Positions 37,527-60,195 of a stretch of 64,000 nucleotides of DNA are shown here, piece by piece. The position numbers and the translations under genes were made by a program. Under the pieces are notes generated by a model. It was given only the letters and a program-made list of their open reading frames with translations, did not search any database and had not been told where the DNA came from. Source of the stretch: Devosia sp. 66-14 (GTDB lineage: Bacteria; Pseudomonadota; Alphaproteobacteria; Rhizobiales; Devosiaceae); contig MKVB01000005.1 of assembly GCA_001899085.1 (NCBI GenBank), positions 158,916 through 222,915 of the forward strand, in the 5' to 3' direction. Every line of letters starts with the position of its first letter. The first letter of the stretch is position 1.

Positions 37527-37572
37527 GAGCGGACCGGTCCTCCTTGTCCCGCCGGCCAGTCGTCCGCACCGG

Positions 37573-37667: not shown

Positions 37668-37697
37668 CGGAGGGTGAGCAGTCGTGCCGTCTGTTAG

Positions 37698-41007: not shown

Positions 41008-42315
41008 TCAGGACTGGGGAGCCACATCGATCACGTGGGCATACGACCCCATGACGCGCCCCTCGACCAGGCCCATCGGCGGCAGCGCTTCACCGAGCGC
41101 GTCGGTGGCGCTGAACAAAGGCGTGCCATGGGTCTGGCGCGCGGACGAATAGTGAAACTCGTGGCCGTTGAGCGATGACGGGAACGGCAGCGGGCTCTGG
41201 TGGGTGAGCCGGCGATAGCCGAGCACGCGCTTGGGACGGTCGATGCGGGTCTGGTGCGGCAGAAGGCCCGACATCGGGTAAGTCGCACCTGCCTTGTCGG
41301 TCAGGCTGGCGCCGAGCACCATGAAGCCTCCGCACTCGCCATAGATCAGCGCCGACCTGTCGGCAGCGGCGCGCAGGCCGCTGATGAAGTTGAAGGCGGT
41401 CGATAGACGGCCGGCATGCAGTTCCGGATAGCCGCCCGGCAGAAAGACGGCGTCGGCGGTCGCTTCGGGAGCCTCATCGGCGAGCGGCGAAAAGAAGCTG
41501 ATCGTGGCGCCGGCCTCGCGCCAATCCGCGAGCCAGTGCGGATAAAGGAAGGCAAAGGCTTCGTCGCGAGCGATGGCGATGTGCCGGCCGAGGGGCGGGA
41601 GTTGCGCCCCTCCCCCAACCCCTCCCCTCAAGGGGGAGGGGAGCGGAGAGCTCAGTGCGAGGAACAGGTTGAGGTCGAGGTAATCCTCGACAGCTTCGGC
41701 CGCCGCAGCGACGATCTTGTCGAAGCCGGCGACCTCATCGGGAAGCACCAGGCCGAGGTGGCGGTCGGGGAGCCCCAGCGCCTCGCGTTTCGGAATGACG
41801 CCGAGCAGCGGAATATTCTCTGCGCTCAGCGCGGCGCGGAGCATCAGCTCGTGGCGCGTCGAGGCGGCGCGGTTGACGATCAGGCCGGCGACTTTCACCT
41901 CCGGACGCCAAGTGGCAAAGCCGTGCGCCAGCGCCGCGATCGACTGCGACTGGCGTTCGGCGTCGAGCACCAGGATCACCGGCAAACCGAGGACGGCGGC
42001 AAGGTCCGCGGTGGAGCCACGACCATCGGCCGCGCCATCGAACAAGCCCATGACGCCTTCGACCAGCAACAGGTCGGCAGCCGCGGCGTGACCTGACGCC
42101 AGGCTGCGCAGGCGCTCGCCTGACATCGCCCAGGGATCGAGGTTGATCGCCGGACGGCTGGCGGCCCGAGCGAGGATCGTGGTGTCGATATAGTCGGGGC
42201 CGGTCTTGGCCGGCGCCACCGCCAGGCCCCGGCGGGTCAGGGCGGCCAGCAGGCCGAGCGTAAGCGTGGTCTTGCCCGAGCCGGAGCGGGGCGCGGCAAT
42301 GACCAGCCCGTTCAT
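41008..42315 (-). CDS. cobB: Cobyrinate / hydrogenobyrinate a,c-diamide synthase with a translated palindromic insert
   Basis: 435 residues. Two-step glutamine-dependent amidation of side chains a and c. N-terminal domain: IAAPRSGSGKTTLTLGLLAA. C-terminal glutaminase: GECGGFMVLG with the nucleophile Cys, and a final GSYAHV with His. Between the two domains (about residues 224-237) the protein contains SSPLPSPLRGGVGGGAQ, encoded by the G/C palindrome at 41607-41645. The frame remains intact and both active sites are present, so the enzyme is probably functional. Note the insertion falls in the linker between domains. Confidence 0.95.
   Translation of the reverse strand: MNGLVIAAPRSGSGKTTLTLGLLAALTRRGLAVAPAKTGPDYIDTTILARAASRPAINLDPWAMSGERLRSLASGHAAAADLLLVEGVMGLFDGAADGRGSTADLAAVLGLPVILVLDAERQSQSIAALAHGFATWRPEVKVAGLIVNRAASTRHELMLRAALSAENIPLLGVIPKREALGLPDRHLGLVLPDEVAGFDKIVAAAAEAVEDYLDLNLFLALSSPLPSPLRGGVGGGAQLPPLGRHIAIARDEAFAFLYPHWLADWREAGATISFFSPLADEAPEATADAVFLPGGYPELHAGRLSTAFNFISGLRAAADRSALIYGECGGFMVLGASLTDKAGATYPMSGLLPHQTRIDRPKRVLGYRRLTHQSPLPFPSSLNGHEFHYSSARQTHGTPLFSATDALGEALPPMGLVEGRVMGSYAHVIDVAPQS
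41607..41645. repeat. Palindromic element inside the cobB frame
   Basis: gcccctcccccaacccctcc followed by cctcaagggggaggggag, a hairpin element of the same family as the intergenic copies, read as SPLPSPLRGGVGGG in the cobB frame. Confidence 0.85.
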
Positions 42316-42446
42316 CCTGCGACCCTAAGATTATGCTGCAAAATCTTGATGCTAGCGGTTAAGATGGGGTTATCGCAACCGGACCGGGGGGTATCGGCAG
42401 CGCTGCGGCGGCCCAGCAGGGCGCTGCACTTGGGGAAAATGCATAG

Positions 42447-43181
42447 ATGAAGATCCTGATCCTCGGCGGGACCGAAGAGGCTCGGCAGCTTGCCGCGCAA
42501 CTGACCAAGATGGGCCACGCGGTGACCACCTCGCTGGCGGGCCGCACCAGCGACCCGCTGCTGCCGGCGGGCGAGGTCCGCGTCGGCGGCTTTGGCGGCG
42601 GCGATGGGCTGGGCAACTACATCATCAACGAGCGCTTCGACCGGCTGGTCGACGCCACGCACCCCTATGCCGAGGAGATCAAGCGCAACGCCGTGCGGGC
42701 GGCGGAGCTTGCCGAAATGCGGCTGGTGCGACTGACGCGCCCGGCATGGAGCGAGCCGCAATATGCGTTCTGGAAGCATGTCGCCAATGCCGAGGAAGCT
42801 GCCGCCAGCCTGCCCAAGGGGGCACGGGCGCTGCTGACCGTGGGACACACCCATCTCGACGTCTACCTGAAACGCACCGATTGCAGCTTCGTGGTGCGCT
42901 CGATCGAGCCGCCGGAGAAGGAGCTGCCGGTGAACGCCACCTCGCTGCTCGGCCGGCCGCCGTTCTTCTTCAACGGCGAGTTCCAGATGATGCAGGAGCA
43001 GGGGATCACCCATCTGATCTGCAAGAATTCCGGCGGCGCTCAGACCGAAGCCAAGCTGCAGGCGGCGCTGCGGCTGCGGCTGCCGGTGTTCATGATCGCC
43101 CGACCGCCCCTGCCGCCGGCGCACGAAGTGCCGACAGTCGGACAGGCGATCGCGGCGCTGAAGCTGGGGACGAGTATCTGA
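42447..43181 (+). CDS. cobK: Precorrin-6A reductase
   Basis: 244 residues. NADPH-dependent reduction of precorrin-6A to 6B. Start KILILGGTEEARQLAAQL and DATHPYAEEIKRNAV, LLTVGHTHLDVYL, NSGGAQTEAKLQAAL are typical. Divergent from cobB, with a 131-base shared upstream region. The start is supported by a GGGGAAAA stretch. Confidence 0.94.
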   Translation: MKILILGGTEEARQLAAQLTKMGHAVTTSLAGRTSDPLLPAGEVRVGGFGGGDGLGNYIINERFDRLVDATHPYAEEIKRNAVRAAELAEMRLVRLTRPAWSEPQYAFWKHVANAEEAAASLPKGARALLTVGHTHLDVYLKRTDCSFVVRSIEPPEKELPVNATSLLGRPPFFFNGEFQMMQEQGITHLICKNSGGAQTEAKLQAALRLRLPVFMIARPPLPPAHEVPTVGQAIAALKLGTSI

Positions 43182-43185
43182 GAGG

Positions 43186-43349
43186 CTGGCGCGGGAAGAG
43201 TACCCCCCACCCTGTCCCTCCCCCGCAAGGGGGGAGGAGACCTGCGCTCGCAAATCTTCGGAGGCCACGGACGCCTGTGCTGGCGTCTCCCTCCCCCTTG
43301 CGGGGAGGGGACAGGGGTGGGGGTGCGTTTCCCGCACTGCCCTATCGAG
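43186..43349. repeat. Composite palindromic element (about 160 bases, intergenic copy)
   Basis: Fills almost the whole gap between the convergent cobK and cobM genes. It starts ggctggcgcgggaagagtac, holds one hairpin (ccctcccccgcaaggggg), a 50-base centre and an inverted hairpin (cctcccccttgcggggagg), and ends cgtttcccgcactgccctat. The outer segments are themselves inverted copies. The same composite, in a diverged form, lies inside the gene at 48618-49733. Confidence 0.85.
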
Positions 43350-43351
43350 GG

Positions 43352-44134
43352 TCATCCCCCTGCCCTCAGCTTCTTCTTTCCGGCATTGCGCAGCACGTGG
43401 GCGAAACTCTCGTCATAGAGCCGCGACTCGCGGAAGCGGGTTTCGCCGAGGACACGGCCGACAAGGATCAGCGCGGTGCGGGTGATCTTTTCCTCGCGGA
43501 CCCGCGCCTTCATCTCCGAGAGGGTGGTGAAGATCACCTCCTCGTCCGGCCAGGTGGCCCGGTAGATGATCACCACCGGACAATCGGCGCCATAGTTCGG
43601 CGTAAGCGCGGTCTCGACATAGCCGAGGTTGCGGATCGACAGGTGGATGCAGAGCGTCGCCTTCGACAGGCCGAGGATCTCGAGGCTCTCGGCGGCCGGC
43701 ATGGCTGAAGCCTTGCCCGACGTGCGGGTGAGGATGATGGTCTGCGATATCTCCGGCAGGGTCAGCTCGGCGGCAATGCGGGCCGCGGCGCCGGCGAATG
43801 CCGGCACGCCCGGCACCACCTCGTAGGGGATGCCGAGCGCATCGAGCCGGCGCATCTGCTCGGCGACGGCGCCATAGATCGATGGGTCGCCGGAATGCAC
43901 GCGCGAAACATCCTTGCCTGCGTCATTGGCTTTGATGATCTCGTCAATGATCTCGTCGAGATGCATCGGCGCGGTGTCGCGAACCAACGCCCCCGCGGGC
44001 GCGGCGGCGACGATCTCGGCAGGCACCAGCGAGCCGGCATAGAGACAGACCTCGCAGCGCTCGATGAGGCGCTGGCCGCGCAGCGTGATGAGATCGGGCG
44101 CGCCAGGGCCGGCGCCGATGAAGTAGACGGTCAT
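43352..44134 (-). CDS. cobM: Precorrin-4 C(11)-methyltransferase
   Basis: 260 residues. SAM-dependent corrin methylase. Motifs VYFIGAGPGAPDLITLRGQR, CLYAGSLV, HSGDPSIYGAVAEQMRRLD, VVPGVPAFAGAAA. Last gene of the overlapping operon starting at 51043; its ATG shares four bases with the stop of cbiG-cobJ (ATGA). Confidence 0.96.
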   Translation of the reverse strand: MTVYFIGAGPGAPDLITLRGQRLIERCEVCLYAGSLVPAEIVAAAPAGALVRDTAPMHLDEIIDEIIKANDAGKDVSRVHSGDPSIYGAVAEQMRRLDALGIPYEVVPGVPAFAGAAARIAAELTLPEISQTIILTRTSGKASAMPAAESLEILGLSKATLCIHLSIRNLGYVETALTPNYGADCPVVIIYRATWPDEEVIFTTLSEMKARVREEKITRTALILVGRVLGETRFRESRLYDESFAHVLRNAGKKKLRAGG

Positions 44135-45912
44135 GTGCTGGTGGTCTCGGCGGATTTGGCCGCGTAACCACGCGGCGTATAGGCGACGGCGCCGGAGCCG
44201 CGCTGGAAGGTGCGTGAGGTGCTGGAGCCGATCATCACGATGGTCAGCATGTCGATCTCGGTCGGATCGAAATCGGCCAGCCTGACGACGCGGACCTTTT
44301 CGGTGGGACGGCCAAGGTTCGAACCGATGATAACCGGCGTCGACGGCGGGCGATGCTCGAGGAAGATGCGCTTGGTCTCCTCGATCAGGTCGGTGCGGCG
44401 CTGCGAGCGCGGGTTGTAGAGCGCGGTGACGAAATCGGCGCGGGCGGCGCCATCGAGACGCTTCAGTATATCGGCGCGCGGGGTGAGCAGGTCGGAGAGC
44501 GAGATGCAGCAGAAATCGTGGCCGATCAGCGCGCCGGCGGATGCCGAAGCCGCCTGGAAGGCGGAGACGCCGGGATGGGTCTCGAGATTGACGCGGCGCG
44601 CCACCTCGGACACGGCGCGCGGACCGGTGGCGTCGAGCAGTTCATAGGCCAGCGCCGCCATGGCGTAGATCTGCGCATCGCCGGAACAGACCAGCGACAC
44701 CACCCGTCCTTCCGCCGCAAGTTCGAGCGCGTGGCGCACGCGGCTCTCCTCTTCGCCCAGAGCGTAGCGGTGCTCGACCTGGCCGCGGCGCAGGTCGGCG
44801 ACGAGATCGAGATAGAGTTCGTAGCCGACCCAATCGGTGCTTTGCTCGAGCGCGTTGATTGCCGCGGCGGTGCGCGACACGGCCTCGCCCGGTCCGATAC
44901 CGACGAGGTGCAGCACGCCCGGGCGATGGCCCAGGGTTTCGGGATCGATCGGGTGCAGCGCCTTGCCGATGGCGCAGGTGGCGCGGTCGGATTTCAACTT
45001 CTCGACCACCAACGGGCCGGCCTTGAGGGCGGCGGCTTCGGCGACGCTGGGGGTACCGACGGTCTGGTCGACATAGTCGGAGGGCGCGCGCAGCCGGTAG
45101 CGCTCCTGGCTCAGCTCGGCGGCCGAGAACAGGCGCAGCGGCACCTTGAAATGCCGCGCCGCTTCGAGCAGCGCCGGCTCGTCGGCCTTGATGTCAATCG
45201 AGGCGATTGCGGCGAGACTTTGCGGCGCCAGATTCTGCTGGCGGAGAGCGAAATCGATTAGGCCGATAACCTCCTCGGCGTCGGCGCCCCGCTCGCATCC
45301 CACCCCGGCAACCAAGGTCCTCGGGTGATAGACGATGCCGCGCTCGATGCGCAGCTTCTTCTCGGAGACCAGCACCTTGACCGCACCGAGCGAGGACACC
45401 GGATAGCCGGCTTCGGCGAGAAACGGCGCCTCGCCCTCGATCTGCAGCTTGGCGCCGAGCAGCAGCGCCATCATGGCGGGCTTGGCATCCTGCGGGGTGC
45501 CGAGCACCCAGCCCGGTGGCGGCTCGTCGAGGCTGTGGAGGAACTTGCTGTCCGACGCGGTGGTGATGGCGGGGTGCCCCCCGAGCTCGTCGGCCAGCTC
45601 ACGCGCCAGCCGGTTGGCGCCGCGGTGGCCGCCGAGCAGCGGCACGATGCTGGCCCCGCCGAGCGATACGGCCAGCACCGGCGGCTCCTTCTGCTTGTTC
45701 TCGAGGCTCGAGGCGAGCAGCCGGATCAGAATGCCGGCGGCGCAGACGCCGATGATCGGTCGTCCCTCGGAGAACAGCCGCGGCAAGAGCTTCAGCGCGT
45801 CGGGGCCGCCCTGCCCGCAGATATAGATCTCGCCGCCGGTGGCTTCGGCGATGCGGGTGGCGGTGTCGAGACCGGTATCGGCAAAGATGATGATCGCAGG
45901 GGTGGTGGTCAT
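44131..45912 (-). CDS. cobJ: CbiG-like / precorrin-3B C(17)-methyltransferase fusion
   Basis: 593 residues. About residues 1-320 are a CbiG-type module: N-terminal sugar-isomerase-like part (GVCAAGILIRLLA, VVPLLGGHRGANRLA-type segment) and a CobE-like C-terminal part (LVAGVGCERGADAEEVIGLI). Residues 335-580 are CobJ (LHLVGIGPGEAVSRTAAAIN, VCSGDAQIYAMAAL, THPGVSAFQAASASAGALIG, FVTALYNPRSQRRTDL). The enzyme methylates C17 with ring contraction. CbiG normally opens the lactone in the anaerobic route, so its fusion here is of note. Coupled at both ends by four-base overlaps. Confidence 0.93.
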   Translation of the reverse strand: MTTTPAIIIFADTGLDTATRIAEATGGEIYICGQGGPDALKLLPRLFSEGRPIIGVCAAGILIRLLASSLENKQKEPPVLAVSLGGASIVPLLGGHRGANRLARELADELGGHPAITTASDSKFLHSLDEPPPGWVLGTPQDAKPAMMALLLGAKLQIEGEAPFLAEAGYPVSSLGAVKVLVSEKKLRIERGIVYHPRTLVAGVGCERGADAEEVIGLIDFALRQQNLAPQSLAAIASIDIKADEPALLEAARHFKVPLRLFSAAELSQERYRLRAPSDYVDQTVGTPSVAEAAALKAGPLVVEKLKSDRATCAIGKALHPIDPETLGHRPGVLHLVGIGPGEAVSRTAAAINALEQSTDWVGYELYLDLVADLRRGQVEHRYALGEEESRVRHALELAAEGRVVSLVCSGDAQIYAMAALAYELLDATGPRAVSEVARRVNLETHPGVSAFQAASASAGALIGHDFCCISLSDLLTPRADILKRLDGAARADFVTALYNPRSQRRTDLIEETKRIFLEHRPPSTPVIIGSNLGRPTEKVRVVRLADFDPTEIDMLTIVMIGSSTSRTFQRGSGAVAYTPRGYAAKSAETTST

Positions 45913-46649
45913 GCGCCGGCTCCGGCGTTCTCGGCCCAGGCCTCGGTGCCGCGGTAACAGAGGATGGTGGAGAAATACGGCCGTTCGTCGTGGGCGAAAT
46001 CAGCGAGGCGGGTGATCCGTTGACGTGCCGTGGTGGCATGCTCGACCACCACGGCGCCATCGGCATGACCGGTCTCGGCCAGCAGCGCGCGGATGCGGTC
46101 GAAGTGGCGACCGACCTTGATGATGGCAGCGACCGGCGAGGCGGCGAGCTCGATGCGGAGCGTCGCGTCGTCGAGCGGCGCGGGCAGCACCTTGAGCATC
46201 TCGTTGCGCGCCGCAAGCGGCCGACCCGCCACGGCAGCCGCAGCGGTCAGCGAGGTGATGCCGGGGACGATCGCCACCGGGGCGTGCGGGCCGACGCGGG
46301 CCACCAGATACATGGCCGAGCCATAGAACAGCGGATCGCCCTCGCAGAGCCAGGCGACATCGCGCCCGGCACGCAGGTGAACGAGAATGGCGGCGGCGGC
46401 GGCGTCATAGGCGGCCTGGGCCGGACCGCGCTCCACCGCCATGGGGATCGCCACCGGCAGGCGTTCGGCCGCGACGTTGAGGTGCGGCGTGGCGATCTCG
46501 AGCGCCAGCGCCGCGTCCTCGCCGGTGGTCGGATAAGCGACGACCGGCACGGCACCGAGCAGGCGGGCGGCTTTGAGGGTCAGCAGTTCGGGATCGCCGG
46601 GGCCGACACCCACCAGGTGTAGCGTGCCGATGGGGCGGTCGATGCTCAT
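45909..46649 (-). CDS. cobI: Precorrin-2 C(20)-methyltransferase
   Basis: 246 residues. GTLHLVGVGPGDPELLTLKA, WLCEGDPLFYGSAMYL and IVPGITSLTAAAAVAG identify the C20 methylase. It starts at ATG 46649 inside the end of cobL (four-base overlap) and ends inside the start of the fusion gene. Confidence 0.95.
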   Translation of the reverse strand: MSIDRPIGTLHLVGVGPGDPELLTLKAARLLGAVPVVAYPTTGEDAALALEIATPHLNVAAERLPVAIPMAVERGPAQAAYDAAAAAILVHLRAGRDVAWLCEGDPLFYGSAMYLVARVGPHAPVAIVPGITSLTAAAAVAGRPLAARNEMLKVLPAPLDDATLRIELAASPVAAIIKVGRHFDRIRALLAETGHADGAVVVEHATTARQRITRLADFAHDERPYFSTILCYRGTEAWAENAGAGA

Positions 46650-48001
46650 GGCGTCACCACCAGGCCGTGCATGGCCTTGGTGACCAGCCACTGCGTCACC
46701 GCCATGCGCGGCTTGAAGGCCCGATGGCCGCCGACGCGATCGAGCGCCGAAATCTCGATGCGGGTCAGCTCGCCGCCGAGCTGCAGATGGCGCGAATAGA
46801 GCGCGTGCTCGGCATCGAGGGTCACCGCATTGGCAACCAGCCTTCCGCCGGGCTTCAGGGCGCTCCAGCAGGCGTCGAACAGGTCGTCGTTGCCGACATC
46901 GCCGCCCATGAAGATGGCATCGGGCGGAGCCTTGCGGCCGAAGGTGCCGGGCGCCTCGCCGCTGACGATTTCGAGACCCGGGACGCCCAGGGCGGCGGCA
47001 TTGAGGGCGATCATCTGCAGCCGTTCGCCCTCGCGTTCGAAGGCGATGGCCTTGGCATCGCGGGCCGCCCGCATCCACTCGATGGCGATGGAGCCCGAAC
47101 CGGCGCCGACATCCCAAAGCAGCGCCCCCGGAAAGGGAGCGAGCTTGGCGAGCGTCGCGGCGCGCACCTCACGCTTGGTCAGCTGCCCATCGGTGACGAA
47201 GACCTCGTCGGGCAGGCCGGGAACCGGAGGCAGCAGCGGGGCGGTGAAATCGGGCACGCAGTCGATGGCGAGGACATAGAAATCCTCGACCTCGCGGCTG
47301 TTGAAGCTTTCGGCTTCGTCGGATGTGATCTTCTCGTCCGGGCCGCCCAGGTTCTCCAGCGTGGTGACGAGGCTGCGGCCATAACCGCGATCGACCAGCA
47401 GCTCGATGGCGAGATCGACGGTGGTGTGGTCGGCAGTGAGCGCCAGGATGCGGTTGCCGGGGAGCAGATGCGGATGCATCGACTCGACCGCCCGGCCATG
47501 CAGCGACAGGGTGGCAACCGACTGCAGCGGCCAGTGCAGCCGCGCCGCCGCGAGCTGGAAGGCCGAGGGGTGGGCGTGAATGACGAACTCGGAAGGCAGC
47601 AGGTAGCGGGTCAGCGTCGCTCCGATGCCGAACCACATCGGATCGCCCGAGGCGAGGATGACCGTCGGGGTTTCGCGCAGCGCCATCACCTGCTCGATCA
47701 TGCTGTCGAGCGGCGGCTCCCATTCGATGAGCGTGCGGCCATCGGCATAGGTGGCGGCAGGCGAATGGTCGGGCTCTTCGCCGGCCAGCGCCCGGGCGAC
47801 GGCCTCGAAGCTGCGCTTGGTGACGAACTCGGGGTTGAACAGGTCCGCCGTGACGTTGGGGCGGGTGACCGGCTCGAGATCGGCGAGGAAGCGCGGCGGG
47901 CCGATGATGGTGTCGGCATAGCTGAGCAACAGTTTGTAAGAGGCGGGCAGCTCGCTCGGCCCCCGTTCCCCTACCCCGATGATGTGCAGCCACGCGGTCA
48001 T
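46646..48001 (-). CDS. cobL: Precorrin-6Y C(5,15)-methyltransferase (decarboxylating)
   Basis: 451 residues, a fusion of CbiE-like (N-terminal, about 1-210: LHIIGVGERGPSELPASY, ILASGDPMWFGIG) and CbiT-like (C-terminal: LWDVGAGSGSIAIEWMRAAR, IFMGGDVGNDDLFDACW) methylases. It adds methyls at C5 and C15 and removes the C12 acetate carboxyl. Overlaps cobH and cobI by four bases each. Confidence 0.95.
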   Translation of the reverse strand: MTAWLHIIGVGERGPSELPASYKLLLSYADTIIGPPRFLADLEPVTRPNVTADLFNPEFVTKRSFEAVARALAGEEPDHSPAATYADGRTLIEWEPPLDSMIEQVMALRETPTVILASGDPMWFGIGATLTRYLLPSEFVIHAHPSAFQLAAARLHWPLQSVATLSLHGRAVESMHPHLLPGNRILALTADHTTVDLAIELLVDRGYGRSLVTTLENLGGPDEKITSDEAESFNSREVEDFYVLAIDCVPDFTAPLLPPVPGLPDEVFVTDGQLTKREVRAATLAKLAPFPGALLWDVGAGSGSIAIEWMRAARDAKAIAFEREGERLQMIALNAAALGVPGLEIVSGEAPGTFGRKAPPDAIFMGGDVGNDDLFDACWSALKPGGRLVANAVTLDAEHALYSRHLQLGGELTRIEISALDRVGGHRAFKPRMAVTQWLVTKAMHGLVVTP

Positions 48002-48621
48002 GCGAGGTCTTTCGAAATGGCGTTGAAGGCGGCGCTGGCGATGGCCGAGCCACCGCGGCGACCGCGCACCGTAAGGAATGGAATAGAAAGCGCGTCGGAC
48101 GCGAGCAAGGCCTTGCTTTCAGCCGCCCCCACGAAACCCACCGGGGCGGCGATGATGGCTGCCGGTCGCGGGCCCCCGGCGGCGATCAACTCGATGAGGT
48201 GGAACAGCGCGGTGGGGGCATTGCCGATGAGGACGACGGCCCCGGCAAGGCGCGGTCGCCAGAGCTCGACGGCCGCGGCTGAGCGGGTGGTGCCGAGAGA
48301 CGTCGCGAGCGCCGGCACATCGGCATCGTTGAGGGTCAGGATGAGCTCGGTGGTCTCGGGAAGGTGGCGGCGGATGATGCCGGAGCGGACCATTTCGCAA
48401 TCGCAAAGGACAGGGGCGCCGGCGCGCAGCGCGTCGCGCGCAGCCGTCGCAACTGCGGGATCGCCGACGATATCGGCGGCGAGATCGACCATGCCGCAGG
48501 CATGGATCATGCGGATGGCGGCGGCGTGGAGTGCAGCGGGCAGCGCCGACAGGTCGGCCTCGGCTTCGATGGTCGCGAAGCTCTGCGCATAGATGGCGGC
48601 GGGGTCCCGGAGGTAGCTCAC
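47998..48621 (-). CDS. cobH: Precorrin-8X methylmutase
   Basis: 207 residues. Moves the C11 methyl to C12, forming hydrogenobyrinate. The catalytic His is in IRMIHACGMVD. Other motifs: CDCEMVRSGI, IGNAPTALFHLIEL, AAPVGFVGAAESKALL, VRGRRGGSAIASAA. ATGA overlaps on both sides. Confidence 0.96.
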   Translation of the reverse strand: MSYLRDPAAIYAQSFATIEAEADLSALPAALHAAAIRMIHACGMVDLAADIVGDPAVATAARDALRAGAPVLCDCEMVRSGIIRRHLPETTELILTLNDADVPALATSLGTTRSAAAVELWRPRLAGAVVLIGNAPTALFHLIELIAAGGPRPAAIIAAPVGFVGAAESKALLASDALSIPFLTVRGRRGGSAIASAAFNAISKDLA

Positions 48622-49733
48622 GCGGCGCTCCGCAACAGGGCGAGCAGTGCCTCATGTCCGGCGCCGACGATCCAGCCCTCTTCGGCGATGAGGGCGACGC
48701 GCTCGTCGGCGGTCACCCCGGCGGGCGGGCTGAGGAAGCTTGCGAGGAGACTGGCGCGGTCGAGCTCGGCGAAGCGCGCGGTGGTGACTTCAACCTGGGC
48801 GCGGTCGCGGGGCAAGCCATCCGCCTCGCCAACCGGGAACAGCGAGGGGTAGATCTCGGTGATGGTGACGGGCCTGCCGAGGTCGTCGGCAAAGCTGGTT
48901 TCGAAGGGCCAGATGGCGATGTCGGCGGCGAGGCGCGGATCGGTGCGCAGCGCCGCGAGACGGGCGATGCCGAGCATGGCCTGGCTGCCGACCGAGCCGA
49001 CGCCGGTGAGCTTCCACACCGGCTGGGCGGTGCGGACATAACGCTCCGCCAGTCGGCGCTCGGGGATCGTCGCGTAAGCGGTCGTCGGGCGCCTGGGGTG
49101 CAGAGCAACGTAGCTGTGCTGGTGCGGGTGCCCCCAGAAATGCGGCCCCTCGGCAAGCCGGTGGTTGATTGCTTCGGCGAGCAGGAAGCGATTGGAGCTG
49201 TTGTCGGGGGCATCGACGACGAGACGAGCCAGCGTCGACCAGAGCTGCAGCCATGGCGGCTGATCACCTGGCTGACGGGCCGGCGCGGGAAACGTACCCC
49301 CACCCCTGTCACCTCCCCGCAAGGGGGAGGGAGACGCCAACTCCAGCGCCAGTGTTCTGGTCTCCTCCCCCCTTGCGGGGGAGGGACAGGGTGGGGGGTA
49401 TTCTTCCTGCATCGCGCTATCGGATGGGCGACTGCCTTGCCCGATGCCGGCCGGCGAGTGGGTCAGATCAGCGCCTGCAGCGGCGATGGCCGCCGCGGCG
49501 CCGCGGGGGTAGCCGAAGACGAAGTCGAAGCCGAGCATGACGCGCTCGTTACGCTGGCGGGCGCTCAGCAGGCGGGTGGCGATCGCTTCCATGGCAGCGG
49601 CACGGGTCGAGGGATTGGCGCTCGGCACCCGGCCTTCGGGCCCGAGTTCGCCGATCCAGATCGAATCCTTGCCGCGCTTCGGCGTATTGGCCGCCGACCA
49701 GTCCACCGCGATGTAGCGATCGAACAGCGGCAT
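48618..49733 (-). CDS. DUF429/RNase H-like protein of unknown role in the cob operon, with a translated composite insert
   Basis: 371 residues. N-terminal YIAVDWSAANTPKRGKDSIW, MLGFDFVFGYPRG, and later VTITEIYPSLFP resemble a DUF429-type RNase H-fold nuclease/ATPase-like protein. The segment at about residues 103-153 (from SRPSDSAMQEEYPPPCPSPA to GGGTFPAPARQ) is the translation of the composite palindromic element at 49278-49422; without it the protein would be about 320 residues. It sits between cbiX (one-base overlap) and cobH (four-base overlap), so a link with corrin metabolism is likely but unproven. Confidence 0.8.
   Translation of the reverse strand: MPLFDRYIAVDWSAANTPKRGKDSIWIGELGPEGRVPSANPSTRAAAMEAIATRLLSARQRNERVMLGFDFVFGYPRGAAAAIAAAGADLTHSPAGIGQGSRPSDSAMQEEYPPPCPSPARGEETRTLALELASPSPLRGGDRGGGTFPAPARQPGDQPPWLQLWSTLARLVVDAPDNSSNRFLLAEAINHRLAEGPHFWGHPHQHSYVALHPRRPTTAYATIPERRLAERYVRTAQPVWKLTGVGSVGSQAMLGIARLAALRTDPRLAADIAIWPFETSFADDLGRPVTITEIYPSLFPVGEADGLPRDRAQVEVTTARFAELDRASLLASFLSPPAGVTADERVALIAEEGWIVGAGHEALLALLRSAA
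49278..49422. repeat. Composite palindromic element inside a coding frame
   Basis: Two facing hairpins: acctccccgcaagggggagg at 49311-49330 and tcctccccccttgcgggg at 49363-49380, with outer flanks ggcgcgggaaacgtaccccc and ggggtattcttcctgcatcg. Same organisation as 43186-43349. It stays open in the gene frame over its full length. Confidence 0.88.
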
Positions 49734-51043: not shown

Positions 51044-51294
51044 TCTCGCCTCTGTTTTGCACAAAGGCAGAGTTCGCTTTTCGACCAACCAGCAGCCCCG
51101 GACTTGGTCCCCGATTTGGGTCGACCGCACCGAGCGTGAGTTTCAGTCCATCAAGGAACGCTGCGCTATCAATGGGTTGTAGTGAGGGGCCCATAGCGGG
51201 TCAAACGATTCCCCGCCCAGATGCGAACGCTTCTCAAAATCACATGCAAATTCAGTGACTTGCCAGCGCGAAAGGGCTCGGCTATTGGCCGCTG

Positions 51295-52197: not shown

Positions 52198-52209
52198 GGG
52201 AAAGCGAAT

Positions 52210-52260
52210 GGTGAGTAGCGAACAACGAAGAGTTCGCCCACTCGCTATTCGCTACTCGCC
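52210..52260. terminator. Inverted repeat between convergent CDF and symporter genes
   Basis: ggtgagtagcgaa (52210-52222) and ttcgctactcgcc (52248-52260) pair with one mismatch around a 25-base loop. It spans the end of the symporter gene and lies just after the CDF stop. It may serve as a bidirectional terminator. Confidence 0.5.
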
Positions 52261-53540: not shown

Positions 53541-54405
53541 CGATCAGCGCCCTGTCCTTGGAGTAGAGGTACTCGTTGAGCACGCCATCGAGAAAGCCGT
53601 TGCTCCTGGCCTTGGTGAGGTAGAGATCGACCCAGGACTTGAGGTCGGTATCGCCGGGCGGCATGGCGATGGCGATGGTGTCGGGATGCCCGGCCAGGTG
53701 GTAGGGCCGCAGCTCCACCGCACCGGCGGAATCGGCGAGGCGCCAGTTGCCGATCTCGATCTCGTCGTACATCAGCGCGACCAGATCGCCGGATTTCACC
53801 GCCGCGAGCATTTCGGGCCAGGCGTCGAAGGCGACGCTCTGGGCCTCGGGAAAGTCCTCGGCGACGAACCCGACATAGGAGGTGCCATCGATGACGCCGA
53901 TGCGCGATTGCGGGCTGTCGAGCAGAGCCGGAATGTCGTTGGCCCGTTCCGGATCGGCAGCGACGAGACGGCCCAGCTGCAGGCGGTTGATCAGGAGAAA
54001 CTGGCGGACGCTGACATAGCTCTGTGAAAAGCTGGCGCGCGCCGCCCGCTCGAGCGTATCGCTCAGCAGGCTGATCGCCATGTCGGCGCGGCCTTCCACT
54101 ACTTCATCGATCAACCCGTCGAAAGTGGTGGCGGCGCGGTTGTATTCGAGCGTCACACCAAGCTTTTCGGCAATATCCTCGGCGATCGCGGGATCGACGC
54201 CGATCAATTTTCCATCGGGACCGACATAGAAGAACGGCACCACGTCTTCGAAGAAGACCGCGACGGTGAGCTTGCCGGCGGCCTGGATGCGAGCAATAGC
54301 GTCGGATTGCGCCTGGACTGGCAGCGATAGCGCAAGCGCCAGCAGGCAGGCCCCACTCAACAGTAATACGGCGCGGCCAAGCCGTTCCAATCCGCGTACA
54401 GACAC
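53533..54405 (-). CDS. Periplasmic amino-acid-binding-type protein (SBP_bac_3) coupled to a symporter
   Basis: About 290 residues from GTG 54405. Signal peptide AVLLLSGACLLALALSLPVQAQ, then the type-3 solute-binding fold (LTVAVFFEDVVPFFYVGPDG, KLIGVDPAIAEDIAEKLGVT, GRADMAISLLSDTLERAARA). It would bind an amino acid or organic acid. No ABC permease or ATPase is nearby; the next gene, overlapping by eight bases, is a DAACS symporter. An alternative is that the protein is a separate sensor or scavenger. Confidence 0.85.
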   Translation of the reverse strand: MSVRGLERLGRAVLLLSGACLLALALSLPVQAQSDAIARIQAAGKLTVAVFFEDVVPFFYVGPDGKLIGVDPAIAEDIAEKLGVTLEYNRAATTFDGLIDEVVEGRADMAISLLSDTLERAARASFSQSYVSVRQFLLINRLQLGRLVAADPERANDIPALLDSPQSRIGVIDGTSYVGFVAEDFPEAQSVAFDAWPEMLAAVKSGDLVALMYDEIEIGNWRLADSAGAVELRPYHLAGHPDTIAIAMPPGDTDLKSWVDLYLTKARSNGFLDGVLNEYLYSKDRALIDG

Positions 54406-54618
54406 TACTCGAGCCCCCAAGGCCGCGCACTCTAAAAGAGTATTGTCGCGGAATTGTTGGCCGAACAATGAAAATCGACTTTCGCCGGTGAGTGTTGATC
54501 GCCGCCGAGCGCCGGCAGATCGCCGCAGTACAAGCTGTGCAAAGCGGATGGTGCGGCATGGCTGCGATGCTGCGGCGCGCCTAAGCTCGCCTGGTGTGCA
54601 TGACCCAGGAGATCTTTC

Positions 54619-54789
54619 ATGACTCTCAATGCGCCTAGCCAGACCATGTTCATCGTCGCCGTCGTCATCGCAGTCATCGCGCTGCTCGGACAGATCGTCT
54701 CGATACCCTTCGTCAGTGCCTATGCGTTCTGGATCCTGATCGTCGCTTTCATCGTGCTCGCCGCCGCGGTGATGATGAAGGGCGCCTGA
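54619..54789 (+). CDS. Small two-helix membrane protein
   Basis: 56 residues: MTLNAPSQTMFIVAVVIAVI at the N-terminus, then a second helix (AYAFWILIVAFIVLAAAVMM) and a short basic/polar end. Start supported by AGGAG 9 bases upstream, stop TGA at 54787-54789. It has a plausible membrane hairpin but no recognised family. It is followed by a small secreted protein and a cupin on the same strand. Confidence 0.7.
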   Translation: MTLNAPSQTMFIVAVVIAVIALLGQIVSIPFVSAYAFWILIVAFIVLAAAVMMKGA

Positions 54790-54890
54790 CGCTTTACCCC
54801 TGGCCTCGGCCCGGAAAGCCGCGAGCTCGCCAAAAGCGTTGCTGGGGTTTTGAGTTGCAGGCCGGCGCATGGCGGGTGATCCTCGCCGCC

Positions 54891-55352
54891 ATGCGCGCTC
54901 TGATTTGCCTACTCGCCCTCGTCCTTGCTGCTCCGGCATTTGCCACCGACTGGGGGCAATACGACAATGCCCGCTTCGGCTACACGATCGATGTGCCGCC
55001 GGGTTTCGAGTGGGGCAGAGAGGCCGATAACGGCGATGGCCGCGCCTTCCGCGACGGGGCCAGCAAGCTCCTCGTCTGGGGCGGCAATATCACCGAGCGC
55101 GACTTCGAGGGCGAGGCCGCGGCAGCCAAGGGATATGCGGCGGCCGACGGCTGGACCATCACCTACGATGCAGCAACGCCGAGCTGGGCGAGCTTTTCCG
55201 GCACTCAGGGCCAGCGGATCCTCTACCAGCGGATGGTCGCCGGCTGCGATGGACACTATGCAGCGTTCCGGCTGGAATACTCGGCCATCGAGATGAGTGC
55301 ACTCGACGCGGTGGTGAACCGGCTGGTGCACAGCCTCAAGGGAGGATGCTGA
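54891..55352 (+). CDS. Secreted protein of unknown function
   Basis: 153 residues from ATG 54891. Signal peptide MRALICLLALVLAAPAFA. The mature protein (WGQYDNARFGYTIDVPPGFE, then DGWTITYDAATPSWASFSGT) has two cysteines (one in MVAGCDGH and one at the C-terminus) that may form a disulfide. It overlaps the cupin gene by one base (TGATG), indicating coupled translation. No family recognised. Confidence 0.75.
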   Translation: MRALICLLALVLAAPAFATDWGQYDNARFGYTIDVPPGFEWGREADNGDGRAFRDGASKLLVWGGNITERDFEGEAAAAKGYAAADGWTITYDAATPSWASFSGTQGQRILYQRMVAGCDGHYAAFRLEYSAIEMSALDAVVNRLVHSLKGGC

Positions 55353-55684
55353 TGGCGCGCGTCTACCAACGCGAAGACTGGGCCATGCACCCGACACGCC
55401 AATCGGGCGAGTGGGAGGGCGGCGAGGCCAATGTCACGGTGATCCTGCATGACAGCGTGGAGGCGGGCGCCGGACCGCGACTGCATACGCACCCCTACCC
55501 CGAGACCTTCATCATCGAGGCAGGCCACGCGGTGTTCACCATCGGTGACGAGGAGATCGAGGCCGGGCCCGGCCAGATCCTCGTGGTGCCGGCCAACGCG
55601 CCGCACAAGTTCAGGACGCTCGGCCCGATGAAGAGCATCCACATCCACGCCAGCCCGAAATTCGATACGCGCTGGCTGGAGTAG
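55352..55684 (+). CDS. Cupin-domain protein
   Basis: 110 residues. Metal-binding cupin motifs GPRLHTHPYPETFIIEAG and VPANAPHKFRTLGPMKSIHI are present. Such small cupins are often metal-dependent dioxygenases or isomerases or signalling proteins. GGAGG lies 6 bases before ATG 55352. Confidence 0.85.
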   Translation: MARVYQREDWAMHPTRQSGEWEGGEANVTVILHDSVEAGAGPRLHTHPYPETFIIEAGHAVFTIGDEEIEAGPGQILVVPANAPHKFRTLGPMKSIHIHASPKFDTRWLE

Positions 55685-55714
55685 GGGGATGCGGCTCTCG
55701 GGGCGGAAGTCCAG

Positions 55715-56356
55715 CTAGAACTCGATCCCCGCCTGGGCCTTCACGCCGGAGCGGAAGGGGTGCTTGATCTCGGTCATTTCGGTGACCAGGTCAGCCAATT
55801 CGATGACTTCGTCCTTGGCATTGCGCCCGGTGACGATGACATGCGTGTCGCGTGGCTTGTGCTTCAGCACCTCCAGCACTTCGTCGAGCGGCAGGTAATC
55901 GTAGCGCAGCACGATATTGAGTTCGTCGAGCAGGATGAGCTTGTAGCTTTCGTCGGCGATCAGTTCCTTGGCCATCTCCCAGGCGCCGCGGGCCGCGGCG
56001 AGGTCGCGCTGGCGGTCCTGGGTGTCCCAGGTGAAGCCCTCGCCCATCGCCTTGATGGTCACCTGGTCGGGAAACCTGTCGAGCACATCGCGCTCGCCGG
56101 TCGACCAGGCGCCTTTGACGAACTGCACCACGCCGACCTTGAAGCCGTGGCCGATGGCGCGGAACACCATGCCGAAGGCCGCCGTCGACTTGCCCTTGCC
56201 CTTGCCGGTGTGGACGATGAGCAGGCCGCGCTCCTCGGTCTTGGTGGCGAGGATCTTGTTCCGCGCCTCCTTTTTCTTCCGCATCTTTTCGGCGTGATAG
56301 GCGTCGCGCTCGGCCTCGCTCATCAGGTCGGTCTTCTTGGGGGCTTTGTCCGTCAT
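55715..56356 (-). CDS. cobO: Corrinoid adenosyltransferase (CobO/BtuR type)
   Basis: About 213 residues. ATP-dependent adenosylation of cob(I)alamin or cob(I)yrinate diamide. P-loop VHTGKGKGKSTAAFGMVFRA and LILLDELNIVLRYDYLPLDE, HVIVTGRNAKDEVIELADLV match. Its ATG overlaps the cobN stop by one base (TGATG), as expected for cobN-cobO operons. Confidence 0.95.
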   Translation of the reverse strand: MTDKAPKKTDLMSEAERDAYHAEKMRKKKEARNKILATKTEERGLLIVHTGKGKGKSTAAFGMVFRAIGHGFKVGVVQFVKGAWSTGERDVLDRFPDQVTIKAMGEGFTWDTQDRQRDLAAARGAWEMAKELIADESYKLILLDELNIVLRYDYLPLDEVLEVLKHKPRDTHVIVTGRNAKDEVIELADLVTEMTEIKHPFRSGVKAQAGIEF

Positions 56357-59300
56357 CAAGTGTCCTCGAGATACGCGAAAGCGGAGTTGGAACGTGGCGT
56401 CCAGAAGCCACGGCGGCGAGCTTCGTTGAATTTGGCGATCAGTTCGTCATAGCCGAAGCGGTTGCTGGTTTGAATGAACCGACGCGTCGCATCGTCCTCG
56501 ACGAAAGCCTCGAAGGCGAGGTCGAAATGGTGCGTCTGCACCGCACCGGTCGTCGCGGCGAAAGCGAACATGTAGTCGACGGTGGCGATGATCTCGAAAG
56601 CGCCCTTGTAGCCATGGCGCTTCACCCCATCGATCCATTTCGGGTTGACGACACGGGAGCGGACCACCCGCGAAATCTCCTCGGCCAGCGTGCGGGCCAG
56701 CGGCCGCTCGGGCCGGGAGTGGTCGTTGTGATAGGCGGCAGGGGCGCGACCGCTCAGGCTCTGGGCGGTGGCGGCGAGGCCGCCCTCGAACTGGTAGTAG
56801 TCGTCGCTGTCGAGCAGGTCATGCTCGCGGTTGTCCTGGTTGTGGACCACCGCCTCGATGTCGGAGAGCCGGGCGGCGAAACGGTCGCGCGCCGCTGTGC
56901 CCTCGGCATTGGCGCCGTAGGCATATTGCCCCCAGTTGAGGAAGGCCTCGGCAAGGTCGGCCTTGCTGTCCCAGCTTCCCGAGTCCATCAGGCCCTGGAG
57001 GCCCGCGCCATAGGCGCCCGGCTTCGAGCCGAAGATGCGGTGGCCGGCGCCCAGCGCCGCGGCACGATCGTCGGCGCCAGCCTGCATCAGTTCCAGCGCA
57101 TCGGTGCGCATGCGGGCGGCGATGGGGTTCTGGTCCTCGGGCTCGTCGAGCGCGCCGATGGCGCGGACAGCCTTGTCGAACAGGGCGATCTGCGCCGGAA
57201 AGGCGTCGCGGAAGAAGCCGGAGATCCGCAGCGTGACATCGACGCGCGGTCGGCCGAGCCTGGCCAGCGGGATGATCTCATAGCCGGAGATGCGGAGCGA
57301 GGACGGGTCCCATAGCGGCCTCGCGCCGATGAAGGCGAGAGCCTGGGCGATGTCGTCGCCGCCGGTGCGCATGTTGGCGGTACCCCAGACCGAGAGCGCG
57401 AGAGAACGCAGCGGGACGCCGTGATCCTGGAAGTGGCGGACCAGCAGGTTTTCCGCCGACTTCCGCCCCAGCTCCCAGGCGGTTGGCGTGGGCACGGCGC
57501 GGATGTCGACCGAATAGAAGTTGCGCCCGGTCGGAAGCACATCCAGACGACCGCGCGACGGTGCGCCGGAGGGACCGGGGGCGACGAACTTGCCGTCGAG
57601 GCCAAGCAGGAGCGAGGCGATCTCGTTCGGGCCGGAAGCGGCGAGGCGGGGACGGATAACGTGTTCTATCGTTTCGAGCACGGCGCGTGTTGCCGACCAC
57701 TCCGCGTCAGGGGTCCTGCCCTCCACGAGCTTGGTCGCCAAGTCCTCGAGATGTTCGACGATGTCGCCGACGGTGCGGGCGAGTTCCCCTTCCCCTTGAG
57801 GGGTGGGAAGCGCCGGGCCGGTCCATTGGGCACCGAGGTCGGCCGTCAGCGGGTCGAAGCCGAGCTTGAGATCATCTGCCAGAGCGCGGATCAGCGAGCC
57901 GTCCCCCGCTGCTTCGCCTCGCGGAACGCGGGCCAGCGCGACGATCAGGTCGCGCTCCAGGCGGCCGGCGGGGGATTGACCGAAGATGTGGAGGCCATCG
58001 CGGATCTGGGCCTCCTTAAGGTCGCAAAGGAAGGTGTCGATCCGCTTCAGGGTTTCAAACTCATCGGCCACGAGGCCGATGTCGCGATCGAGCCGGATAT
58101 CGCGCGTGAAATCGAGGATGCGCTTGCGCAAGCCCGCGAGGCGACGGCGGTCCATCCCCGAAGCGGCATAGTACTCGTCGAGCAGCGCCTCGAGGTCCTT
58201 GAGCGGCCCATAGGTTTCGGCGCGGGTGAGCGGCGGCACCAGATGATCGATGATCACCGCGCCGGTACGACGCTTGGCCTGGGTGCCCTCGCCCGGATCA
58301 TTGACGATGAACGGATAGAGCTGCGGCAGCTCGGCCCAGAGCGCCGCTGGATAGGATGCGGCGTCGAGTGCTGTGGCCTTGCCGGGCAGCCACTCGAGAT
58401 TGCCATGCTTGCCGTTGTGGATCAGGGCATGGGCGGCGAACTCGTGGCGCAGCCACAGATAGGCAGCGAGGTAGCCATGTGGCGGCACCAGGTCGGGATC
58501 GTGGTAGCTGGCGGTTTCGTCGAGATGATAGCCGCGGGCGGGCTGGATCATGATGGCGACGTTGCCGAGGCGAAGCGCCGGCAGATGGAAGGTCTCGCCG
58601 CGGACGAACGGATCGGCAGACGGGTCGCCCCAGCGGGCGGTGACCTCGGACCGAACCTTGGCCGGGAGCGCAGCGAAGAGCTCACGGTAGCGATGCACGG
58701 GAAACGGGATGCCCTCGCCGCGTTCGGGATGAGCGTTGGTGGGGCCGGATTGGAGGAGTTCGATCAGGGCGTTGCCTGTGGCGCCCCCCCTCCCATCTTC
58801 CCCCACAAGGGGGGAGGTGTCTGTCGGTGTATCTGGCGCTGACCGAGCCTCAAACTCGATCGGCACCTCCCCCCTTGTGGGGGAGGTTGGGAGGGGGGCG
58901 GCCACATACCCTGCCCCCGCAAGCACCTTCAAAATCTCAACCGTCGACTGCGGTGCGTCATAGCCGACGCCATTGGCCAATCGACCGTCGCGGATCGGAT
59001 AGTTGGCGAGGACCACCGCAACACGCCGATCGGCGCGCGCGGTCGCACGCAGCGTGGTCCAGTTCTTCGCCAGCGTGACGGCACGCCGGATGCCGTCGGC
59101 GTCCGGCGCATAAGCGGAGAGCGGGCACTGGGTGCGTTCGTGCCAGACCGCGTCGTGCTTGTGGCCGACCAGCAGCATGCCGATGCGGCCATCCAGCTCG
59201 GGCAGCACCACCTGCATGGCGAGGTCCTTGGCGGTGAGGCCCTGGATGTCGGCGGCCCATTGCGCCTCGGGGCGGCCGCCCTGCAGCAGCTGGAGCACCG

Positions 59301-60195
59301 GGGCGTCGATGCCGGCAAACGGGTTCTGCTTGTCGTCGAGGCCATCCAGCCCAAGGGCGAAGCCGGTGAGGTTGAGGATGACGCTGGGCGGGTAGGTGGC
59401 GAAAACCGCCTGCACGAAGCGGATGCAGGCGCCTTCTTTCAAGGTCGAGACGACAACGGGCACCGGGTTGAGGGATCGCGCCTCGAGCTCGGCGATCAGC
59501 GCTTCGAGCGTCGCGGTGCCGGCCCCCTCGAGGGCAGCGCGATAGAACAGGATCGGCACGTTCGGGTGCGGCGAGGCGGGCAGCTCGTCGAGCATGCCGT
59601 GCGCGGGGTGCCAGAGGCCGAAGCGGTGGAAGGGTTTGGGGGCAGAACTGCCCGGTTCGAGCGCGGGGCTTCCCCCACCCTTGATCCCTCCCCGCGAGGG
59701 GGAGGGAGACGACTGCGCCAGTCGTGCGAAGGCCGCCAGCAGCGCATCGGCGTTTTCCGGGCCGCCGGCGGTGAACAGGCTATGGAGCCTGGTCCAGTCA
59801 TCGGGGTGGATGGTGGACCGCTGCTGCAGGATCGGATCCGGGTTGGCGTCGCCGGGGAGCAAGGCCAGCCGGATGCTGCCGCTCAGTGCCAGGGCGGTGA
59901 GTTCGTCGACACCGTATTGCCAGTAGGCCGGGCCGCCGAGCAGCCGGACCACCACCAGTTGCGCGTGCTGCACGGTCTGATCGAGCCACAGGTCGACCGA
60001 GAGGTTGTGGCTCAACCGCATGAGATTGGCGAGCCGCAGGTCGGAGGAGCCGGCGCGGTCGGCGGCCCCGGCCAGCATCATCAGTTCGCTGTCGGCAGCC
60101 GAGGCGAAGATGATCGGCGCCGGGGACTGGGCGAGGTCGATGGCCTCGCCTTCCTGTTGCAGGGCGCCGGCCTGGGCGGAGAGCAGGTGCATCAT
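56356..60195 (-). CDS. cobN: Cobaltochelatase subunit CobN with two translated palindromic inserts
   Basis: 1279 residues. ATP-dependent cobalt insertion into hydrogenobyrinic acid a,c-diamide together with CobS and CobT, which are not in this window. Typical CobN/Mg-chelatase H motifs: HGKHGNLEWLPGKATALDA, FIVNDPGEGTQAKRRTGAVI, GRNFYSVDIRAVPTPTAWEL, GSKPGAYGAGLQGLMDSGSW. Two inserts are seen: at about residues 162-176 (SSPSPSRGGIKGGGSP, from 59669-59712) and about 431-472 (from PLPTSPTRGEVP to SPLVGEDGRGGATG, from 58781-58905). Both remain in frame. The start is ATG 60195 or the next ATG at 60192; they overlap the LytTR stop. Confidence 0.95.
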   Translation of the reverse strand: MMHLLSAQAGALQQEGEAIDLAQSPAPIIFASAADSELMMLAGAADRAGSSDLRLANLMRLSHNLSVDLWLDQTVQHAQLVVVRLLGGPAYWQYGVDELTALALSGSIRLALLPGDANPDPILQQRSTIHPDDWTRLHSLFTAGGPENADALLAAFARLAQSSPSPSRGGIKGGGSPALEPGSSAPKPFHRFGLWHPAHGMLDELPASPHPNVPILFYRAALEGAGTATLEALIAELEARSLNPVPVVVSTLKEGACIRFVQAVFATYPPSVILNLTGFALGLDGLDDKQNPFAGIDAPVLQLLQGGRPEAQWAADIQGLTAKDLAMQVVLPELDGRIGMLLVGHKHDAVWHERTQCPLSAYAPDADGIRRAVTLAKNWTTLRATARADRRVAVVLANYPIRDGRLANGVGYDAPQSTVEILKVLAGAGYVAAPLPTSPTRGEVPIEFEARSAPDTPTDTSPLVGEDGRGGATGNALIELLQSGPTNAHPERGEGIPFPVHRYRELFAALPAKVRSEVTARWGDPSADPFVRGETFHLPALRLGNVAIMIQPARGYHLDETASYHDPDLVPPHGYLAAYLWLRHEFAAHALIHNGKHGNLEWLPGKATALDAASYPAALWAELPQLYPFIVNDPGEGTQAKRRTGAVIIDHLVPPLTRAETYGPLKDLEALLDEYYAASGMDRRRLAGLRKRILDFTRDIRLDRDIGLVADEFETLKRIDTFLCDLKEAQIRDGLHIFGQSPAGRLERDLIVALARVPRGEAAGDGSLIRALADDLKLGFDPLTADLGAQWTGPALPTPQGEGELARTVGDIVEHLEDLATKLVEGRTPDAEWSATRAVLETIEHVIRPRLAASGPNEIASLLLGLDGKFVAPGPSGAPSRGRLDVLPTGRNFYSVDIRAVPTPTAWELGRKSAENLLVRHFQDHGVPLRSLALSVWGTANMRTGGDDIAQALAFIGARPLWDPSSLRISGYEIIPLARLGRPRVDVTLRISGFFRDAFPAQIALFDKAVRAIGALDEPEDQNPIAARMRTDALELMQAGADDRAAALGAGHRIFGSKPGAYGAGLQGLMDSGSWDSKADLAEAFLNWGQYAYGANAEGTAARDRFAARLSDIEAVVHNQDNREHDLLDSDDYYQFEGGLAATAQSLSGRAPAAYHNDHSRPERPLARTLAEEISRVVRSRVVNPKWIDGVKRHGYKGAFEIIATVDYMFAFAATTGAVQTHHFDLAFEAFVEDDATRRFIQTSNRFGYDELIAKFNEARRRGFWTPRSNSAFAYLEDT
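58781..58905. repeat. Inverted pair of palindromic elements inside cobN
   Basis: Arms gcgccccccctcccatctt... (58781-58820) and their inverted copy (58863-58903, ends ttgggaggggggcggc) match at most positions; each has an inner core of the type ccccacaaggggggagg. The intervening 42 bases are unlike the core. The whole block is an open frame in cobN. Confidence 0.88.
59669..59712. repeat. Palindromic element inside cobN, single copy
   Basis: cttcccccacccttgatcc followed by ctccccgcgagggggaggg, one hairpin without an inverted partner. Read as SSPSPSRGGIKGGGS in cobN. Confidence 0.8.

Follow-up and report, generated by a model that had tools for sequence, protein, structure and literature searches.

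The window, a stretch of 64,000 nucleotides (nt) from the genome of Devosia sp. 66-14 (assembly GCA_001899085.1, contig MKVB01000005.1, positions 158,916 to 222,915 of the forward strand), contains C-rich palindromes that lie between genes and within three open reading frames (ORFs), including cobB and cobN. These palindromes are non-autonomous mobile elements with a REPIN-like build, typically consisting of two C-rich hairpins in inverted orientation, each of the form CCTCCCC-loop-GGGGAGG, and of GC-rich tails, and we describe here their association with genes of the DUF559 family, whose products are probably their mobilisers, and the codon phase in which they are read when they lie inside genes.

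The pattern CCTCCCC-N(3-7)-GGGGAGG gives 274 exact hairpins in the 5.72-Mb genome, and a reversed-pattern control gives none. A genome sample composed of the window and 55 stretches picked around listed copies (0.52 Mb) contains 214 hairpins with no more than one mismatch per arm, corresponding to 130 elements, of which 84 are doublets and 46 are singles. At least five doublet subfamilies can be distinguished by loop and tail: F1 (loop CTTGC), F2 (CTTNATG), F3 (CTTGA), and F4 and F5, which share the loop CTTGT and have 7- and 8-bp stems respectively. The conserved tails extend beyond the hairpins, most clearly in F1 to F3. The majority of the sampled copies are between genes; 11 of the 130 elements pass a codon-model test as intragenic, several of them doubtful, and the intragenic copies that we trust in this sample are the four elements of the window. 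As a separate observation, palindromes look clustered, among the matches listed, at 1.21-1.36 Mb of C1 and 0.53-0.86 Mb of C2 of genome G000.

The elements of the window and their host genes are listed below, where phase 0 denotes the register in which the T of the C-rich arm is the first base of a codon (TCC, serine), so that the arm is read CC-TCC-CC and encodes 'PSP'.

41008..42315, minus strand: cobB (cobyrinic acid a,c-diamide synthase), host gene; NCBIfam NF002204, 462.8 bits (cut-off 254).
41619..41641, minus strand: single F3-type hairpin (loop CTTGA) in cobB, reading PLPSPLRGGVGGG in phase 0; the sequence to either side aligns with outgroup cobB.
43196..43351, no strand assigned: 156-nt F1 doublet, intergenic; hairpins 43217-43237 and 43290-43308.
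48618..49733, minus strand: host ORF ('DUF429-like'); NCBIfam NF011066 (PRK14495), 124.2 bits, below the cut-off of 596.
49278..49425, minus strand: F1 doublet in the 'DUF429-like' ORF, reading CPSPARGEE...SPSPLRGGDRGGG; hairpins 49312-49330 and 49364-49384, both in phase 0.
56356..60195, minus strand: cobN (cobaltochelatase subunit), host gene, with insertions at several sites; Pfam PF02514, 1148.9 bits.
57788..57806, minus strand: degenerate hairpin in cobN, reading PTPQGEGELA, in a place that is occupied by inserts in the cobN of other Devosia.
58783..58896, minus strand: 114-nt F5 doublet in cobN, reading LPTSPTRGEV...TSPLVGED; hairpins 58797-58817 and 58866-58886, phase 0 at both arms.
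59672..59716, minus strand: single hairpin (59687-59705) in cobN, reading SPSPSRGGIKGGG in phase 0; outgroup CobN lacks the insert.

In a collection of named genomes, those of Devosia head the list of best cobN matches. Comparison with relatives shows that the palindromes are dispersed, that they are polymorphic with empty sites, and that insertion has recurred at a few cobN spots in several lineages. At the position of the 156-nt element at 43196-43351 a relative (G011) has 12 nt instead, so that this is a real insertion; it is intergenic and not a coding copy. The F5 doublet in cobN is likewise replaced by 12 nt at the same place in relative G015, a net gain of 102 nt, or 34 codons. At about five positions Devosia CobN proteins are extended by segments that the outgroups lack or have in short form, and the palindrome family present differs by lineage; the degenerate hairpin at 57788..57806 is possibly an old insertion. 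For the second host ORF, which an earlier note on this DNA had called 'DUF429-like', a Pfam search at E<=0.001 returns no match. Two further observations concern repeats of other kinds: a cobN of the Hyphomicrobiales (L025) contains an in-frame repeat-like peptide with the insert VRQAHDEELRMR..., apparently unrelated to the C-rich palindromes, and at 2794-2949 the window has a 78-nt segment twice over, perfectly repeated head to tail, 78 being a multiple of three.

Genes encoding DUF559 proteins are found beside palindromes of this kind. A search located DUF559 at 96 places in 27 of 41 genomes, and 88 of these were used, with the weak matches L230 and L231 retained; the other eight were at contig ends or their sequence was not retrieved. 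Full 300-nt flanks are present at 82 of the 88 loci, from 25 genomes, and a C-rich perfect hairpin lies within 300 nt of the gene in 69 of these, on both sides in 45. Among 277 called genes used as controls there are 34 with a hairpin and two with hairpins on both sides (10 and 0 for the 56 short ones), and 1000 random positions in the cobN loci of Devosia score 125 and 10, while 1000 in the window score 83 and 2. Counting only the first member of each of 36 clusters defined by shared host flank leaves 25 with a hairpin and 17 with hairpins on both sides. The association extends to a class-wide draw of 190 genomes, in which 64 genomes, including that of Devosia sp. 66-14, have DUF559, and the 29 best-scoring loci, from 29 genomes, were read: a C-rich hairpin is present at 25 of the 27 loci with full flanks (27 genomes; both sides in 12), compared with 2 of 108 single 300-nt control segments taken 900-1500 nt away in the same loci. 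The 14 of the 41 genomes that lack DUF559 have 16 hairpins or fewer each.

The hairpins also match one another and the protein that they accompany. In 46 of 47 two-sided loci the left and right hairpins have the same arm class, where 23.7 are expected. With orthologous and near-identical loci set aside, 58 of 74 DUF559 proteins have the same hairpin class as their nearest relative, and 500 shuffles of the class labels give a mean of 28.2 and a maximum of 42. At several loci the gene is placed between inverted half-elements, as in L148/L213 (an inverted repeat some 50 nt long), L219 and L226 (F1-type halves), and L206, where DUF559 lies between F3 halves inside the cobN of G005, a genome of the same genus as that of the window. 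Three cobN genes contain an in-frame DUF559 domain between palindromes (L031, 11319-11968; L077, 11376-11888; and L260, the G005 cobN). The genome of Devosia sp. 66-14 itself has five DUF559 genes without stops, each beside palindromes of a different family (F2 or outside F1 to F5), and the palindrome family beside one of these (L145) is present in 48 copies in the genome, with 0 in the control. Within the window, at 20339-20473, there is a pair of CCTCTCCCC/CCTCGCCCC palindromes that belong to another class and resemble those flanking the DUF559 genes of relatives.

DUF559 corresponds to Pfam PF04480, which L147 matches with 106.2 bits (cut-off 20.6). A profile built from three DUF559 proteins matches solved structures that bear the names Endonuclease-Like Protein (3hrl, 2.9e-22) and, less strongly, Mobile intron protein (3r3p, 0.0028), the latter of which we take to be I-Bth0305I; a match to PvuRts1I is weaker still (~0.06). 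One DUF559 protein is placed among Vsr-like PD-(D/E)XK nucleases in a section of a paper on Caulobacter (PMC12907096). A plausible model is that the palindromes are mobilised by the DUF559 nuclease, acting as a small restriction- or homing-type endonuclease, that autonomous copies have a DUF559 gene between or adjoining inverted half-elements of the same family, and that the short gene-less doublets would be moved in trans. From these genomic comparisons we judge it probable that DUF559 is the mobiliser. The fuller proposal, in which DUF559, a single-domain restriction-type nuclease, would be the missing mobiliser of C-rich alphaproteobacterial palindromes, take the role that RAYT has in other systems, form a transposable system with cognate hairpin classes, and travel in-frame inside genes together with its own nuclease gene, we regard as evenly poised between right and wrong.

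Several observations weigh against the mobiliser model and leave room for other explanations. No C-rich hairpin is found within 300 nt in 13 of the 82 DUF559 loci (11 of the 36 clusters). Palindrome and DUF559 counts are correlated, which is in favour of the model, with Spearman coefficients of 0.85 (41 genomes), 0.72 (25, the family) and 0.61 (19, the genus), but these ignore phylogeny; one genome (G010) has three DUF559 genes and four hairpins of the CCTCCCC pattern, and another (G013, 82% complete) has 253 hairpins and two DUF559 genes. In the genome of Devosia sp. 66-14 no DUF559 gene was seen beside F1 or F3 to F5, the families of the coding copies in the window, such neighbours being present in relatives only; movement of these families would therefore be past, or provided in trans by another DUF559 protein, or due to something else. 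The empty sites retain 12 nt, in stretches that are 75-90% identical, no target-site duplication is readable at the empty and filled sites compared with G011 and G015, and no transposition intermediate was seen. One interpretation is that DUF559 is a passenger: some transposase, or host replication or repair, would spread the palindromes, and the gene would ride or be tolerated between them. The abundance of F1 and F3 to F5 in a genome where they have no DUF559 neighbour favours this, as do the loci that lack a near hairpin; the persistence of the association across the class and the agreement of protein relatedness with hairpin class argue the other way. Also against it, no match to the Y1 transposase RAYT (PF01797, E<=0.001) was found in the genome of Devosia sp. 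66-14 or in 25 family members carrying up to 429 hairpins, other transposases not having been searched for; five of 16 other genomes searched do have a match, all outside the family. Taken together, we consider the passenger explanation possible but the less probable of the two. Far less probable still, to the point that we give it almost no credence, is that the hairpins merely terminate transcription, or are GC-rich inverted repeats that arose by chance. They are indeed GC-rich and most sampled copies fail the intragenic test, but the reversed-pattern control, the conservation of subfamily tails past the hairpin, and the in-frame cobN copy with an empty site in a relative all stand against it, and the empty sites and conserved tails contradict it as the main explanation.

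The earlier note had proposed that all coding copies use the same reading frame of the repeat. For the window this is correct, as six of six hairpins, in four elements, are read CC-TCC-CC, although with four elements the window alone is weak evidence (chance 0.012 at one third, 0.029 against a stop-aware 0.41). We tabulated phases in the window and its relatives, accepting an element as intragenic when both of its flanks are homologous to insert-free outgroup proteins, a procedure that replaced codon-model calling. Ten duplicate loci from the same genomes were excluded and hairpins were grouped into 38 elements of the CCTCCCC type, including the four of the window. By first hairpin, phases 0, 1 and 2 are represented by 26, 5 and 7 elements, which is neither equal thirds nor strict constancy. 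Five doubtful elements, none of them in phase 0, were dropped by judgement to give 26/2/5 in 33 elements; L010 9432, L011 9932, L012 6914 and L012 9929 are suspected shadow ORFs or gene edges, and L060 155 is of another hairpin type. Four phase-0 elements that are probably shared by descent (L234 2015, L257 1988, L235 1989 and L240 3936) were collapsed by eye, giving 22/2/5 with both adjustments. The phase of L242 3861 was reassigned, the stem finder having taken an alternative stem. An all-against-all ORF homology pass (50/31/35, 116 hairpins) was set aside, as it retained weak and shadow ORFs and assigned a wrong frame to the 'DUF429-like' ORF.

Intergenic doublets are open in the three phases in fractions of 0.68, 0.59 and 0.38, from which a stop-aware expectation of about 0.41/0.36/0.23 is obtained. 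Against 0.41, phase 0 is over-represented at 26 of 38 (P=6e-4) and at 26 of 33 (P=1.2e-5), and also with shared copies collapsed, at 22 of 29 (P=1.6e-4) or, without the exclusions, at 22 of 34 (P=0.005); because most of the elements are in cobN, the sites are not fully independent. Stop content thus accounts for the bias inside genes in part only. The preference is real, but it is a bias and not a rule, with other frames seen in relatives, such as SLPLEGRAGEG/SIPPLKGEA in L077, PAPPLKGEG in L250 and PTPPHKGEG in L069. The common peptide theme that the earlier note had described holds in so far as the register is fixed at the 5' arm; it is not constant through the loop (SPLRGG against SPLVGE) because the stems differ in length, 7 or 8 bp. 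A second palindrome type, the Rhizobium-type TCTCCCCC, which lies in cobN and other ORFs of L042, L069, L072 and L079 (Rhizobiales), encodes SPLxGEM in eight of eight copies in the CTTG orientation, but the copies in the other orientation are divided 4/4, and some of the genomes are close relatives; the frame preference is therefore not confined to Devosia.

In 50 hairpins classed by orientation, phases 0/1/2 number 19/6/1 on the TTG side, 10/0/6 on the CAA side and 3/2/3 among those unclassed. Properties of the three frames were compared in intergenic copies, in three groups. In every group phase 1 ranks lowest, and phase 2 highest, for both hydrophilicity and disorder. Stops are most frequent in phase 2 for the CTTGN orientation (0.45) and for F2 (0.54); for NCAAG they are rarest in phase 1 (0.10, against 0.24 in phase 0), yet this phase is used in 0 of 16 cases in genes, which does not sit easily with an explanation by stops. 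Phase 0 has the least cysteine of the three phases for CTTGN (0.15, against 0.82 and 0.86) and the most for NCAAG (0.51, against 0.37 and 0.37). As a single cause, hydrophilicity, stops and cysteine each fail in at least one group. Selection against stops and hydrophobic frames, as suggested in the earlier note, fits when the two are taken jointly, although the hydropathy differences are small and the explanation was arrived at after the fact. Continuity with the DUF559 ORF does not fix the frame either, and was discarded: hairpins read in the frame of the neighbouring DUF559 ORF, mostly outside host genes, are distributed 22/13/20 in the 55 with an open link (18 others are not open; orthologous loci are not collapsed), which differs from the intragenic distribution (Fisher, 4e-4 against 26 of 33 and 0.011 against 26 of 38). 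Because the frames are mixed beside DUF559 genes, the phase preference seems not to be built into the element.

We read the bias as the least harmful insertions having been kept. The constant frame would then be an effect of retention, in which an insertion into a gene survives if its length is divisible by three and the frame in which it is read has few stops without being the most hydrophobic one, chiefly in places where a protein such as CobN is tolerant. Two other explanations bear on the same data. The first, also raised in the earlier note, is that a flexible and soluble peptide of Pro/Ser/Gly/Arg is selected for, or that hydrophobic frames are selected against; the favoured frame is indeed rich in these residues, and phase 1, which ranks lowest for hydrophilicity and disorder, is seldom used in genes (6 of 26 hairpins on the TTG side, 0 of 16 on the CAA side). 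Solubility alone, however, does not predict what is seen, as phase 2, which ranks highest on both counts, is used less often than phase 0, and in view of the small hydropathy differences and a TTG side that fits only when stops are added, we think this explanation unlikely. Slightly less unlikely, though still doubtful, is a target sequence preference with a fixed codon phase, or repeated use of hot spots in one gene. Most validated elements are in cobN at about five spots, and related copies may have been inherited in common, as this would have it, but the same cobN spots in different genomes hold differing phases and other palindrome families.

The resemblance to known systems is partial in each case. 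REPINs and their RAYTs share with these elements the paired inverted hairpins with a short spacer, copy numbers of tens to hundreds, and an enzyme gene flanked by cognate palindromes in a REPtron-like arrangement. They differ in that no Y1 transposase match is found here in the 25 family members, a DUF559 nuclease gene being in the place of RAYT, and in that inspection of the five family consensuses by eye shows no GTAG tag. EDxHD/Vsr-like homing endonucleases of the I-Bth0305I type are related through the DUF559 profile match to 3r3p (E 0.0028), whereas here the DUF559 gene is flanked by palindromes, many element copies have no nuclease, and no intron or intein was noticed, none having been searched for. 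Homing endonucleases are described as the agents that move the reading frames encoding them (PMC3943268).

Rickettsia palindromic elements (RPEs) are presented in portions of another report as palindromic repeats of about 150 bp that lie in-frame in unrelated genes and encode conserved peptides (PMC10969869). Insertion in-frame into unrelated genes, with homologous flanks, is common to both (here cobB, the 'DUF429-like' ORF and cobN); the host is different, the frame here is a bias with exceptions (26/5/7), and a nuclease gene accompanies the repeats, and as the comparison is by description and not by sequence it is offered as an analogy.

Repetitive extragenic palindromic (REP) sequences tagged with CGTC are, according to sections of a 2013 survey, predominant in Alphaproteobacteria and seem to be without a dedicated transposase, with stems of 8-9 bp that nearly always begin with A or T, and a CCA tail (PMC3733652). 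These too are alphaproteobacterial dimers, some of them intragenic (PMC3733652, same sections), although the repeats of the window have C-rich stems and, by eye, no CCA tail; some F1 and F4 copies do have CGTC ahead of the hairpin, again by eye. The C-rich repeats seem to be a family distinct from the CGTC REPs that poses the same transposase question. The window also contains, at 37569-37670, an inverted pair of CGTCATTCCCGCGAAGGCGGGAA-type palindromes with the look of CGTC REPs, separate from the C-rich repeats.

No publication linking DUF559 with palindromes was seen among the papers listed in searches of an open-access library. DUF559, listed in Pfam as of 'unknown function', is a concrete and testable mobiliser candidate, with a relatedness that tracks hairpin class, for a class of repeats neighbouring the CGTC REPs. 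If the proposal is correct, a role would be assigned to DUF559, and the odd in-frame Pro/Ser/Gly/Arg inserts of CobN-like proteins would be explained; the inserts and their empty sites would then constitute a natural series in which to study how proteins absorb foreign peptides.

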